Of a DNA stretch of 21,331 bases, positions 1,567 through 7,196 are shown one piece after another. The DNA is taken from positions 1-21,331 of IMG/VR virus record IMGVR_UViG_3300006920_000313; one strand, given 5' to 3'. Positions within the stretch are counted from its first letter, which is position 1, and every line of letters starts with the position of its first letter. Made by a program: the position numbers and the translations under genes. This DNA is from a virus. The notes beneath the pieces were generated by a model. That model did not search any database. It was not told where the DNA came from and saw nothing but the letters and a program-made list of their open reading frames with translations.

Positions 1567-1980
1567 CTATTCTTTAAATTCAATTTCTAAACCGTTCATT
1601 TTAGGAGTGAAAGTAGCTAGTAATGTACTGTCTTTTTTAAACTTTACAATATGCTCAACTCCTTTATCTATAAAAAAACTTTCTCCTCTGTTATAAATCT
1701 TTATTCCTTTAGGTGTTATTAATTCAACTTCACCATCTAAAACAAAAGTTAATTCATCGCTAAATAAGTGGTAATGCTTAGATACTTCACTATCTTTTAT
1801 ACCTTTAAATATTAAATTAGTAGAGTCTAATTTTAAATCTAAACCTACCCATTGATTATCTGATTCTAAAAAATTACTCCAAACTTTAGGAATGTTTTTT
1901 ATATCATTTACCTCAATACCATCCTCTAATATCAATCTTGCATTTGCTTTAAAAATATTTAATATATCTTTAGCGTCCAT
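1567..1980 (-). CDS. Cupin-fold protein in the lysis cassette
   Basis: A 137-aa single-domain cupin. The first cupin motif is complete: His69-x-His71, Glu76 and Gly83, in 'KHYHLFSDELTFVLDGEVEL'. The second motif has Gly99 and His110 in 'GESFFIDKGVEH'. The three His and one Glu are the usual metal ligands, so a divalent metal site is expected. Cupins include enzymes, isomerases and small-molecule sensors, and sequence alone does not tell which this is. There is no signal peptide, so it should be cytoplasmic. It overlaps the upstream coiled-coil gene by 11 nt and ends 4 nt before the endolysin start, so it is translated as part of the lysis group. No role of cupins in lysis is known to me. Confidence 0.85.
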   Translation of the reverse strand: MDAKDILNIFKANARLILEDGIEVNDIKNIPKVWSNFLESDNQWVGLDLKLDSTNLIFKGIKDSEVSKHYHLFSDELTFVLDGEVELITPKGIKIYNRGESFFIDKGVEHIVKFKKDSTLLATFTPKMNGLEIEFKE

Positions 1981-2936: not shown

Positions 2937-3233
2937 TTATTTACGTGTTAATTTTAATTTTAATAGTGCTAAATCTTCGATGTACTTATTTGTTTCGCCC
3001 CAGTTAGCAAATTCCTTTTCTGTTAGTTGTAAATTACCCTCATCTATTTTAAGCTTTTTAGCGTCGAAAATAGAGTAATACAGTTGACAAGTCTTGTCTG
3101 TAGTTTTGAATGTTAAAACCGATACAGAAACGCTATCTGCGACTTTGTTTATCCCTATAGTTACGGGTGTTATCTTTTGAGCCTTTGCTCCTATTGATGC
3201 TAAAATAATAGCTGTAAAAATTAGTTTTTTCAT
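2937..3233 (-). CDS. Small secreted or periplasmic protein
   Basis: The ATG at 3233 gives a 98-aa precursor with a clear Sec signal peptide: two Lys, a hydrophobic core, and a likely cut after Ala18 in 'IGAKAQ' with Gln as the first mature residue, as is usual in Bacteroidetes. A longer frame starting at 3275 would overlap the fibre gene and hide the signal peptide, so it is rejected. The mature part of about 80 residues looks beta-rich first ('DSVSVSVLTFKTTD') and helical and charged at the end. It has one Cys and no lipobox. Together with the preceding fibre it forms a pair of exported products between the tail and lysis genes. Function unknown. Confidence 0.8.
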   Translation of the reverse strand: MKKLIFTAIILASIGAKAQKITPVTIGINKVADSVSVSVLTFKTTDKTCQLYYSIFDAKKLKIDEGNLQLTEKEFANWGETNKYIEDLALLKLKLTRK

Positions 3234-3244
3234 TGTGTTTATAT

Positions 3245-6200
3245 TTACCAAGTTGTTAATGCCGATCTTACCCATGTATTAGTTGCAGTACATACATAAA
3301 TATGTGTAGATGTCACTCTTATCTCTCCCGTTGTTCCTGTAGCTGTTGCGCTTGCTGGTGCAGTGTTTAAAGCGGTCAAGTTATATTGTGCAGATGAAAT
3401 AATACCTAAGTCGCTTATTTTCGCTACTTCTGTCCCATTTCTCAAAACCGATAAAGGTGTTGAAGTATCAACTACCCCGTTTACAGCTAGTTTATTAGAT
3501 AAAACTAACATGTTTGATACTGTTGGATTATTTTGAGCTGGTTCTATTTTAATACCTACTGTGTTAGCCCCGAATGGTTCTGCTAGTAAACCTGTAGCGC
3601 CTGATACATTAGGCTTTACTATTAATCCAGCTTGTGACGCAGAATTATTAGTTACTCTAATTACGGCACTAGTAGCATCACTTGCGTTTGTTACAAATAA
3701 TCCTGATGGGTTAGCTAAAGAATTAGTGAAAGACTTAGCTCCCGATACAGTCTGATTTCCTGTAAGCAATACCGCATTTGCAGGACTAGCAAAAGTACTA
3801 TAAGGTACACTCTCAACTGCTTTTGTAGTTGCGTTATACGTTAATAACGGTGGCGTACCGCTTGAAGTTGTTGGTGTTGTTGTTATTGCTAAACTTCCAA
3901 CTTTTGCTGAGCCGTTAACGTTTAATAAAGTGCCATCATCTGTAGTCGTATTTATTAAAAAATTACCGCCTGTAGTAAGTCTTGCACGCTCTGTTGCACC
4001 CGTCAAAAAAACTAAATTACTTAAAGTTCTAATCATAAAATTATTACCTCCTCCAAAGAAGAAAGGTGTACCTATATTACCTATCTCTGTTCCATTTTGT
4101 AAAAAAGAAAAGTAATTAAGTGCAGAATCATAACTTAGAGTACCGTTATTTTGGCTTAAAGAAGAGTTTATAAAATTACCTGTAGCATTTGTAATAGGTA
4201 TATTGTTTTGAGTAGATGAATTGCTAGGCTTAGTATTTAGCTGATTTAAAGTAACCGCATTATTCCCACTTATCCCATTACTTATAGATAGTGTACCATT
4301 TATTTGAACTTTATCTGTATTATTGTCTATATCTGTTCCAAATCCATAACGACCATCTATAGCATTGAAGTAAGAAAATCCTCCACCGAAACCGCTTCCG
4401 TTAGCTCTTATCCTAACAGTAGGAACTCCGCCCGTTAAGCCGTAATTATATAAATCTATTTTTCCGTGATTAACACCTTTGAAACCATCAAAAACAGCAT
4501 ATCCCTCAGCTGCAGTATCACCTCCTATCTTAACTTTGTCGTCAATATATATGTTATTAAAATTATCTGAAAATTTAGCTTGTTTTGGCGATATAATACC
4601 ATTAGCAACAACACTAGAAACCAATTGATGACCCGCATCGTTTGGGTGTAATCCATCAGGTAGATAAGAAGCCTGCCCATTTATCCCGCTATTTGCATAA
4701 GTATCTATTACTGGAATAGATAAAGCATTAGCAATAGCTATCTCGACATCTACAAAGTGTCTTAACTTCAACGCACCACTCCAAGCTGTCGAAGTTTGTA
4801 ACGGCGTTAAAACTATTATTTTTGCAGTTGGGTACTTATTTTTAATTGTTTCTAAATTATATCTAAAAGCCTCTGCAAATGATAAAGTTTGATCTAAACT
4901 TGCGAAAGATTTAGCTAAAACAGCATTAACATCTCCTATAGTATTATCTATATCCCAATCGTTCACACCTGCCATTATTGTAACCAATGTAGCCGTTGCA
5001 GGTGCGCTTGCTATTGTGCTACTTAGTGTTGTACGGCTAGGACTGGGTTTTACAGTTAAAGCTGAAACTCCTTTATTGGTAAAAGCTCTAAAATTGAAAC
5101 GGGTATTTAAAAGTGTAGCGTAACTTGTTAAACCTCCTGTTGAGCCTACACCGTAAGTGATTGAATCACCAAAAGCAACGTAATCTGTAGTTGTTGGGTC
5201 TATAGTATTACTTAAGTTTTTGATAGCGACTAAAGACGCTTTCTCCGCTACGGTTAAGTGTTGATAGTCTCCCGTATTTAAGCCCCCTAATTCGTTGTGA
5301 TCAGGGATAACTCCCGCAGCGAATTCTGTATTAAAAGGGCTAGCGATGTTTAATACCGTATCGTCTTTTTTCACGATTACCCTACCAACTATTACGCCTA
5401 ATTGTTGAAGCTCTACGGGTAATACAGCGGGTCTTGGCGCTGCTTGTGCCAAACTTAAGCTATTGTACTCCGTAGTGCCTAATAGCACGTATAATTTGCT
5501 AGGGCTATTAACTAAAGTGTAGACAAAATCTGTTCTATATTTATTCGTGCCTAAAGTTGTTAAAACTCCCGAATTACTATACTGAGTGTTATTAATATTC
5601 GTTAAGCCTGCCGTTCTTATCCACGTACCTCCACTATTTTGATAGGCTTGTGTAAACGTACTACCGGTATTAGTATTGAAGGCTGGAACGTCTAAACGAA
5701 TAAGCCCTGAGTAAGTGATACCTGCTGTAGTTGCTATCTTTAAAGATGCTGGCGTACTAATGACTAAACCCGTTTCTCGTTTAATAGATTCCGTAAATAA
5801 ATATCTAGTTCGTAACTTTGCATTTGGGTCTGAATTACTACCAACTAGCGAGATATAATGTACCGTAGTGCCTACTCTAGCTGCTACTATCGCAATACTA
5901 TTAGTTTGCGTGTCAATTCCCGTTCCCGTAGTGTTTAATACCAAACTAGGTGAGCCACCGTTATAGCTAACCGTTACATAGTTAGTGATTCCATCGACTA
6001 AAGGGATGTTATTATAAGCTGCTAAAGGATACTTAATAATAGGCGCATACTGATCATTTGTTGCCCTTAAATAAGCTATACCACTTGAAACATTTATTGT
6101 TCCGTTGCCGTTATCCGTAACAGTGAAACCGCTAAATGCACCAGCTGAAATAGTAGTTTTTAAATCTAAGGCGTTCGTTGTTGCTGTTGGGGTGGGTAAA

Positions 6201-6379
6201 TTGCTAGGTATTACTTTACCATAAGTACCATCAGCACCCTCAGTAACTAAGTTAATAGGATCTGTTATAGTTGCACTTCCTGTATTTCTAATCCCGTTTG
6301 CAAATTTAGTTTCTTTTCCCGTACTTACTTGTGCGTAAGTCGAAACCGTTACTAATAATAAAAAAAGTATTTTCTTCAT
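3245..6379 (-). CDS. Tail fibre/spike-like protein with SGNH (GDSL) esterase domain and signal peptide
   Basis: A 1044-aa multidomain protein. Residues 1-17 form a signal peptide ('MKKILFLLLVTVSTYAQ', cut near A16|Q17), unusual for a virion protein. Residues about 18-380 are beta-rich, fibre-like sequence; 'HNELGGLNTGDYQHLT' (361-376) is a segment typical of phage fibres. About 398-600 is an SGNH hydrolase: block I GDS with Ser406, a Gly at 437 (block II), block III GVND with Asn473, and block V 'DGLHPN' with Asp575 and His578, so the catalytic set is complete. The rest is Thr/Ser/Asn-rich with 'NFLINTTTDDGTLLNVNG', seen in Bacteroidetes phage fibre tails. The esterase would probably remove acetyl or similar groups from host surface polysaccharide. 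It starts 4 nt after the small fibre gene. Confidence 0.93.
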   Translation of the reverse strand: MKKILFLLLVTVSTYAQVSTGKETKFANGIRNTGSATITDPINLVTEGADGTYGKVIPSNLPTPTATTNALDLKTTISAGAFSGFTVTDNGNGTINVSSGIAYLRATNDQYAPIIKYPLAAYNNIPLVDGITNYVTVSYNGGSPSLVLNTTGTGIDTQTNSIAIVAARVGTTVHYISLVGSNSDPNAKLRTRYLFTESIKRETGLVISTPASLKIATTAGITYSGLIRLDVPAFNTNTGSTFTQAYQNSGGTWIRTAGLTNINNTQYSNSGVLTTLGTNKYRTDFVYTLVNSPSKLYVLLGTTEYNSLSLAQAAPRPAVLPVELQQLGVIVGRVIVKKDDTVLNIASPFNTEFAAGVIPDHNELGGLNTGDYQHLTVAEKASLVAIKNLSNTIDPTTTDYVAFGDSITYGVGSTGGLTSYATLLNTRFNFRAFTNKGVSALTVKPSPSRTTLSSTIASAPATATLVTIMAGVNDWDIDNTIGDVNAVLAKSFASLDQTLSFAEAFRYNLETIKNKYPTAKIIVLTPLQTSTAWSGALKLRHFVDVEIAIANALSIPVIDTYANSGINGQASYLPDGLHPNDAGHQLVSSVVANGIISPKQAKFSDNFNNIYIDDKVKIGGDTAAEGYAVFDGFKGVNHGKIDLYNYGLTGGVPTVRIRANGSGFGGGFSYFNAIDGRYGFGTDIDNNTDKVQINGTLSISNGISGNNAVTLNQLNTKPSNSSTQNNIPITNATGNFINSSLSQNNGTLSYDSALNYFSFLQNGTEIGNIGTPFFFGGGNNFMIRTLSNLVFLTGATERARLTTGGNFLINTTTDDGTLLNVNGSAKVGSLAITTTPTTSSGTPPLLTYNATTKAVESVPYSTFASPANAVLLTGNQTVSGAKSFTNSLANPSGLFVTNASDATSAVIRVTNNSASQAGLIVKPNVSGATGLLAEPFGANTVGIKIEPAQNNPTVSNMLVLSNKLAVNGVVDTSTPLSVLRNGTEVAKISDLGIISSAQYNLTALNTAPASATATGTTGEIRVTSTHIYVCTATNTWVRSALTTW

Positions 6380-6383
6380 GTGT

Positions 6384-7196
6384 TTATTGATAAAATATTA
6401 CTATGTAATTGTTAACCTCTGTAGGCTCGTTCAAAGTTACAATATTACCAGATTGCGTCCAAGTGTTTATTAATGTTGTATTGTTGCTTGTAGATTTCCA
6501 ATGCTGTGTACCGTTGTTATAAACTTGTTTACACGCTGTATTATCAGGGATTTCAAATGTTTGGCTACCATCTACAGAAACTACATAATCAATAGATAAT
6601 AATACTTTATCTACGTTTGGGACATTAGTATCTAAAGAACCATCTGTAATTAAAGTAATAGAAAATAAAACAGTATTCTCTGGTGTTTGTGGCGTTATTG
6701 GATTATTCACGCTCTCAACACCTTCAACTCTTTGTGCTGAGTTTAAATCATCAAAAACTATTAAATCTAAACGCTGATTTCCTGAACTTGAATAAGGAAA
6801 ATTTATTACAATAGGTACTGTATTAGTGTAATTTTGGTTATTTATTTGCCAAACCCAACCGCTATTAATTGTCAAATCTTGACCTACTAAAGAATAGTTA
6901 CCGTAAACTAATATTTTACCGTTGCTTGGTTTCCCTGCTATGTAATCAGGTGCATCAGGATCTTGTTGAGCATAATTTGGTATTACATTTTTTTGCGCTT
7001 CGAATTCAATACCATCTAATTTATCTTTTAAAGTAGTTGTAAAATCGTTTGTACTAAGTCCTTTTCCTGCTACCTTTTCAACCTTCTTTGCGTTTAACTC
7101 TGTAAAATTTTCGTTTGTTTTTACAAAGCCATTTCTTAAAGTATCGCCTAAGTTGTCGTTAGGTGTAGATGTGTTTATATTTTGTATTAATGCCAT
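6384..7196 (-). CDS. Small tail fibre or virion structural protein
   Basis: A 270-aa protein. Its N-terminus 'PNDNLGDTLRNGFVKTNENF' (about residues 12-31) matches a recurrent start of Bacteroidetes phage fibre-type proteins (P-N-D-x-L-G-D-x-L-R-x-x-F-x-K-x-N-x-N-F). The remainder is Asn/Thr-rich and beta-like, with 'GNQRLDLIVFD' (about 138-148), of the type found in receptor-binding or fibre subunits. No signal peptide is present, in contrast to the larger fibre encoded next. The gene overlaps the connector-like gene by 10 nt. It may link the large fibre to the tail or form a separate fibre; this is inference from position. Confidence 0.85.
   Translation of the reverse strand: MALIQNINTSTPNDNLGDTLRNGFVKTNENFTELNAKKVEKVAGKGLSTNDFTTTLKDKLDGIEFEAQKNVIPNYAQQDPDAPDYIAGKPSNGKILVYGNYSLVGQDLTINSGWVWQINNQNYTNTVPIVINFPYSSSGNQRLDLIVFDDLNSAQRVEGVESVNNPITPQTPENTVLFSITLITDGSLDTNVPNVDKVLLSIDYVVSVDGSQTFEIPDNTACKQVYNNGTQHWKSTSNNTTLINTWTQSGNIVTLNEPTEVNNYIVIFYQ

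Follow-up and report, generated by a model that had tools for sequence, protein, structure and literature searches.

A recurrent Sec signal peptide on tail fibres of Bacteroidota phages, with an SGNH-domain fibre as the starting case

Results

In the present study, we found that an SGNH-domain tail fibre begins with a canonical Sec signal peptide, and that such a signal is a recurrent and modular feature of many Bacteroidota-phage fibres. The gene lies in an incomplete viral genome (21,331 bases from IMG/VR, 32% GC), and this whole stretch is called the window below. We consider it probable that these fibres are exported, trimmed and then joined at lysis to tails built in the cytoplasm. The initial annotation had treated the signal as a departure from the norm for a virion protein; the signal is real, but it is not an oddity of this phage. 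Its view that export is the key to the fibre is supported.

The open reading frame proposed for the fibre (3245-6379, 1044 aa) is real and is on the minus strand, in the tail operon and beside the fibre connector, whose gene ends 4 bp upstream. The features of this region are as follows.

3245..6379, minus strand: coding sequence of the SGNH/GDSL tail fibre, 1044 aa (phrog_5240 tail fiber, E 4.5e-28)
6332..6379, minus strand: predicted Sec signal peptide, residues 1-16, with the predicted cut before Gln17 (Q-rule)
6200..6331, minus strand: mature N-terminal plug, residues 17-60 (Q-STG-E--F--GI-N), the constant segment of the fibre class
5180..6148, minus strand: fibre shaft region, residues 78-400, with similarity to phage tail fibres
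4622..5176, minus strand: SGNH/GDSL hydrolase domain, residues 402-586 (Ser406, Asn473, Asp575, His578)
3254..3367, minus strand: C-terminal tip segment, residues 1005-1042 (phrog_21017, E 3e-6)
6384..7196, minus strand: tail connector (adaptor), 270 aa, signal-less, with an N-terminal PNDxLGDTLR domain, phrog_677-like (baseplate wedge tail fiber connector)
6387..6602, minus strand: putative socket, the last 72 adaptor residues, covarying with fibre plugs across phages
2937..3233, minus strand: 98-aa protein with a Q-rule signal (MKKLIFTAIILASIGAKA, then QKITPV), 3' of the fibre

Residues 80-403 of the fibre match the tail fiber of MW202484 (E 3e-22), and the match to phrog_5240 is mainly through the SGNH domain, which Pfam recognises as PF13472 (Lipase_GDSL_2; residues 402-586, E 5e-22). 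The complete esterase set claimed at the outset was verified in the sequence: GDS at 404-406 (Ser406), GVND (Asn473) and DGLH (Asp575 and His578). The Ser/Asn/Asp/His set is kept in three homologous SGNH domains, and the Asp of the GDS block is Asn in one relative (L007). The D-S-I of the catalytic GDSI (residues 405-407, about 5159-5167) coincides with the Bacteroidota O-glycosylation motif treated below, with the nucleophile Ser406 as acceptor. AlphaFold2 models of the fibre were too poor for use (pLDDT 35 for the whole protein, 46 for the SGNH domain). By likeness to SGNH domains on virion proteins, the domain, a putative esterase, probably deacylates surface polysaccharide at adsorption. 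With the window fibre as query, neither a relative among viral or genome contigs nor a bacterial homologue was found, and the N-terminal consensus gave no tblastn match against phage records.

The 98-aa gene downstream likely starts at 3233, the first listed start (3275) being too early. Its homologues in L008 and L013 are signal-less and start at the mature position, in L013 although the fibres of that phage have a signal. Directly after a signal-bearing fibre, L007 encodes an 84-aa Q-rule protein (L007:17395-17649; MKIIIILLFCFSIQA, then QESIVASG), like the small gene of the window. Elsewhere in the window, a cupin-domain protein (1567-1980, minus strand; PF07883, E 4.5e-7) has the endolysin on one side and a coiled-coil gene on the other; the cupin gene gp061 of Cellulophaga phage phi17:2 also directly adjoins the endolysin.

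The fibre N-terminus reads MKKILFLLLVTVSTYA followed by QVSTGKETKF, with a positive n-region, a hydrophobic core, a small residue at -1 and Gln at +1. This bears out the Sec signal peptide of the initial annotation, which had extended it through Y-A-Q to residue 17; the predicted signal is one residue shorter (1-16). Cleavage between Ala16 and Gln17 is expected for a canonical Sec signal under the Q-rule, by which Bacteroidetes signal peptides are cut before Gln (PMC5837995). Gln at +1 matters only once the protein is cleaved and exposed (PMC5837995, PMC10653852). The ATG at 6379 is the sole start before codon 146, in-frame ATG, GTG and TTG being otherwise absent, and thus a signal-less isoform with the mature N-terminus cannot arise by internal initiation. 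Among N-termini with a hydrophobic core of this kind, 31 of 32 have [AGS]-Gln after the core, where shuffled sequences gave an expectation of 5.3; because the proteins are partly related, the nominal p (4e-25) exaggerates the significance. By our rule-based and coarse calls, 30 of 1336 phage open reading frames of at least 100 aa bear a signal, and nearly all of these occupy fibre slots. The same caller applied to phage lambda called lom, left all tail and fibre proteins uncalled and mis-typed the lipoprotein Bor. A lipoprotein (SPII) reading was rejected, as position +1 is Gln17 and not Cys. Type IX secretion cargo was also rejected: the C-terminal-domain family of that system is absent from the NCBIfam matches of nine signal-bearing fibres. 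Export and cleavage of the window fibre are strongly inferred, and the signal is fitted to the signal peptidase and glutaminyl cyclase of the host. The host is presumed to be a member of the Bacteroidota from the Q-rule and the relatives; the window capsid as query had no match in genome contigs.

Relatives of the window phage were obtained with the portal, the capsid, the connector and one relative's fibre as queries; the portal and capsid searches gave 52 loci, some of which are overlapping pieces of one contig. The fibre that follows the connector (motif STPNDxLGDTLR) has a Q-rule signal in 10 phages (the window, L002, L003, L005, L007, L010, L011, L013, L026 and L029). In L002, L007 and L026, unrelated genes are inserted between the two, breaking the usual close pair. 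The same slot holds a fibre without a signal in L008 and a different gene in L012. Fused connector-fibre proteins (at least 400 aa) have no Q-rule fibre after them, and in a wider connector scan one was found downstream of the fused form in 0 of 21 cases with visible downstream genes. Signal-less genes also follow short connectors in less closely related phages, many of which probably infect other hosts. The signal, the Gln and about 45 further residues are constant across fibre bodies that vary: SGNH (window, L002, L007, L008), beta-helix (L029), LRR-like (the second fibre of L010) and others of unknown kind. With the L010 fibre as query, the same kind of fibre was found in 13 further phage contigs, with Q-rule signals and mostly with other tail adaptors. 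Near opposite ends of one contig (IMGVR_UViG_3300020045_005470; L155 and L158), two fibres of 670 and 1124 aa each have the signal-plus-plug N-terminus, the matching parts of the two copies being 95% identical; these may be alternative fibres.

The L008 fibre is 45% identical to the window fibre over 78-704 and begins within the constant segment, without a signal; thus, the signal is no structural anchor but a module separable from the fibre. Signal prediction across homologues, proposed with the initial annotation and done here by rule, gave recurrent Q-rule signals together with a signal-less case (L008/L033). A homologue lacking the hydrophobic N-terminus had been expected to speak against the signal, but this one begins at the mature position.

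The adaptors 5' of the 13 L010-type fibres are signal-less and have N-terminal parts of at least five kinds, one of which resembles gp45 of Flavobacterium phage 11b. Several of these otherwise different adaptors share homologous C-terminal 60-86 residues. Over 18 adaptor-fibre pairs, similarity of this socket followed similarity of the mature fibre N-terminus (Mantel r 0.68, p 1e-4), also when the adaptor N-terminus was controlled for (partial Mantel 0.68), whereas the adaptor N-terminus itself did not follow the plug (r -0.14). In L162, the adaptor N-terminus is like that of L157, and both socket and plug are like those of L163. The covariation supports a plug-socket contact without proving it, and it may partly reflect DNA linkage, since socket and plug are encoded adjacently.

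Q-rule signals are also found on fibres of Cellulophaga phages from at least three families. Two to five distal fibres have them in each of phi10:1, phi19:1, phi39:1, phi46:3, phi13:2, phi19:3 and Ingeline, with three to five in the Pachyviridae (phi46:3, phi13:2, phi19:3) and in Ingeline (Duneviridae). As evidence of virion detection, we used GenBank notes reading 'annotation based on experimental MS/MS proteomics analysis'. In phi39:1 (NC_021804), which shares the layout of the window, Q-rule signals occur on gp25 and gp26, after the signal-less PNDGLGD connector gp24, and all three proteins have MS/MS notes. In phi10:1 (gp90-gp95, NC_021802), a signal-less small protein precedes Q-rule fibres and spikes; MS/MS notes cover gp90-gp94, and gp91-gp94 (structural proteins, a pectate lyase and a tail fibre) have Q-rule signals. 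In phi19:1, gp101-gp103 have both signal and note, and gp104 is also noted, its signal having Lys at +1. The spike bodies of phi39:1 and phi10:1 are pectate-lyase-like or other, whereas the window body is SGNH. The Q-rule signal was absent from all checked head, neck, tube and tape proteins with MS/MS notes. By analogy with the signal-bearing fibres of these relatives, the window fibre would be a virion member.

A structural protein of phi17:2 has the same pectate-lyase body (49% identity over 119-773) behind a different, signal-less N-terminus; the SGNH fibre of phi46:1, which has an MS/MS note, is also signal-less. Signal use is all-or-none among the distal fibres of a phage: with distal fibres as grouped by us, 0 of 14 phages were mixed, against 9.3 in shuffles. 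No Q-rule fibres were found in Nonlabens phage P12024S, Flavobacterium phage 11b, Bacteroides phage B40-8, the crAss-like phi14:2, phi18:1, phi12:1 and the examined part of laban6-1; thus, the feature is widespread and not universal.

Several further observations concern these isolates. Phages phi10:1 (Assiduviridae, L056:44100-46433) and phi19:3 (Pachyviridae, L072:6001-8334) share a signal-bearing pectate-lyase spike at 97% identity; these two families reportedly have no core proteins in common (PMC8776804). In phi46:3, gp81 and gp82 (L068:5890-9067) have an identical signal peptide, MKHTFNIVLFFILSLGLNA, then QT and different bodies. Isolated Q-rule proteins occur in Flavobacterium phages FCL-2 (L066:45363-45806; 147 aa, mature part QVGIATTTPTETLDVNGTAR, fibre-like) and 6H (L065:8153-8707; DUF4468).

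Bacteroidota O-glycosylation modifies non-cytoplasmic proteins at the motif D[ST][AILVMT] (PMC12871550). In non-redundant protein sets, this motif makes up 29% of D[ST] pairs in signal-bearing fibres (40/139), 51% in signal-less fibres (61/119) and 42% in other phage proteins (514/1211). The depletion is significant against signal-less fibres (Fisher p 1.8e-4; permutation over proteins, p 0.002) and other proteins (Fisher p 0.001); it is weaker when neighbour frequencies are modelled (0.72 of the Markov expectation, 95% interval 0.47-1.00). None of eight control motifs was depleted against that expectation in the signal-bearing set. The depletion is suggestive of fibres that really encounter the periplasm. 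Export in the service of O-glycosylation of the fibre was rejected on this ground.

Discussion

The most probable assembly route is as follows. The fibre would be made as a secretory preprotein and moved by Sec into the host periplasm, where signal peptidase I would cleave it before Gln17 and the host glutaminyl cyclase would probably cap the mature fibre with pyroglutamate. The tail, including the signal-less adaptor (6384-7196), would be assembled in the cytoplasm. Once the cell is opened, the mature plug of the exported fibre would dock on the socket at the adaptor C-terminus, and the resulting infectious virion would bear the SGNH esterase. That docking follows export and occurs at lysis is our inference. 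Counting against the route, the fibres noted by MS/MS in GenBank may be co-purified free fibres, and the L008 fibre and the small-gene homologue of L013 have no signal.

Alternatively, the protein might be exported and have no place in the virion, serving as an esterase or adhesin, either free or bound to the cell, that clears polysaccharide, masks receptors or excludes superinfection. The initial annotation had preferred options of this kind (a free esterase, superinfection exclusion), and both the signal and its Q-rule are real. Furthermore, Q-rule secreted proteins of unknown function in Porphyromonas gingivalis phages (Nixviridae) have been read as possible modifiers of the host surface, potentially of the outer membrane (PMC10367356). 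Those proteins share Q-rule signals with the window fibre, a likeness drawn from their description, and have not been read as virion fibres. However, the window fibre slot adjoins the tail connector, plug and socket covary, proteins of the same kind have MS/MS virion notes, phi17:2 uses the same spike body in its signal-less structural protein, and the type IX export domain was not found in the nine signal-bearing fibres searched. We regard a purely non-virion role as unlikely, and the evidence favours a fibre that is exported and then returns to the virion.

The same MS/MS notes would be explained most simply if the fibres never left the cytoplasm, the hydrophobic N-terminus being unused or inefficient for export and retained as a tail anchor; the cleavage is, after all, a prediction. 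An uncleaved membrane or tail anchor, also offered by the initial annotation, is difficult to reconcile with the invariant Gln at +1, which is relevant only after cleavage, with the depletion of the O-glycosylation motif in signal-bearing fibres only, and with the L008 orthologue, which has the docking segment and lacks the hydrophobic part. We consider this reading improbable. That the signal is a remnant with no present role, left when an exported host gene was recently joined to a fibre (a fusion that the initial annotation had also suggested) or taken over as one, would suit bodies with secreted-enzyme domains (SGNH, pectate lyase) but is very improbable, given that the signal and the phage-specific plug stay constant while bodies are swapped, that the signal is retained over large divergence and in several phage families, and that the window fibre had no bacterial homologue in genome contigs.

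Among known systems, the tail-associated lysin gp59 of Staphylococcus phage 80alpha (PDB 6v8i) has an SGNH domain on a tail-tip virion protein, matching in sequence at E 0.001. Its protein architecture differs from that of the window fibre. To our knowledge, gp59 is assembled in the cytoplasm and has no signal peptide. The coat proteins of filamentous phages are virion proteins whose signal peptide directs their insertion through the host membrane; they are membrane-anchored and assemble at the membrane, and the virus is non-lytic and tailless. In contrast, the window encodes soluble fibres of a tailed phage of lytic type. We found no published remark on the fibre signal peptides of phi39:1 and phi10:1, and full-text literature searches, beyond whose reach most subscription journals lie, gave no report of secretory tail fibres. 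In protein terms, the window product is an SGNH-bearing tail fibre; its assembly route would be a variation not described before, possibly a new kind.

Conclusions

We lean, somewhat less firmly than for the route itself, towards a general form of the exported-fibre reading. A broad set of Bacteroidota tailed phages may build their virions in two compartments, with adsorption fibres exported through the host Sec, signal peptidase I and glutaminyl cyclase, escape from periplasmic O-glycosylation through loss of its sites, plug-socket docking at lysis, and standardised plugs and sockets that let fibres move between adaptors. If so, a large group of Bacteroidota viruses would break the rule that tailed phages are fully assembled by the time of lysis, and fibreless particles and free fibres would stay separated until lysis. 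Inhibition of Sec or of signal peptidase would then block infectivity and not particle formation. The Q-rule genes of such phages would gain a function, and fibre exchange among phages would follow plug-socket rules.
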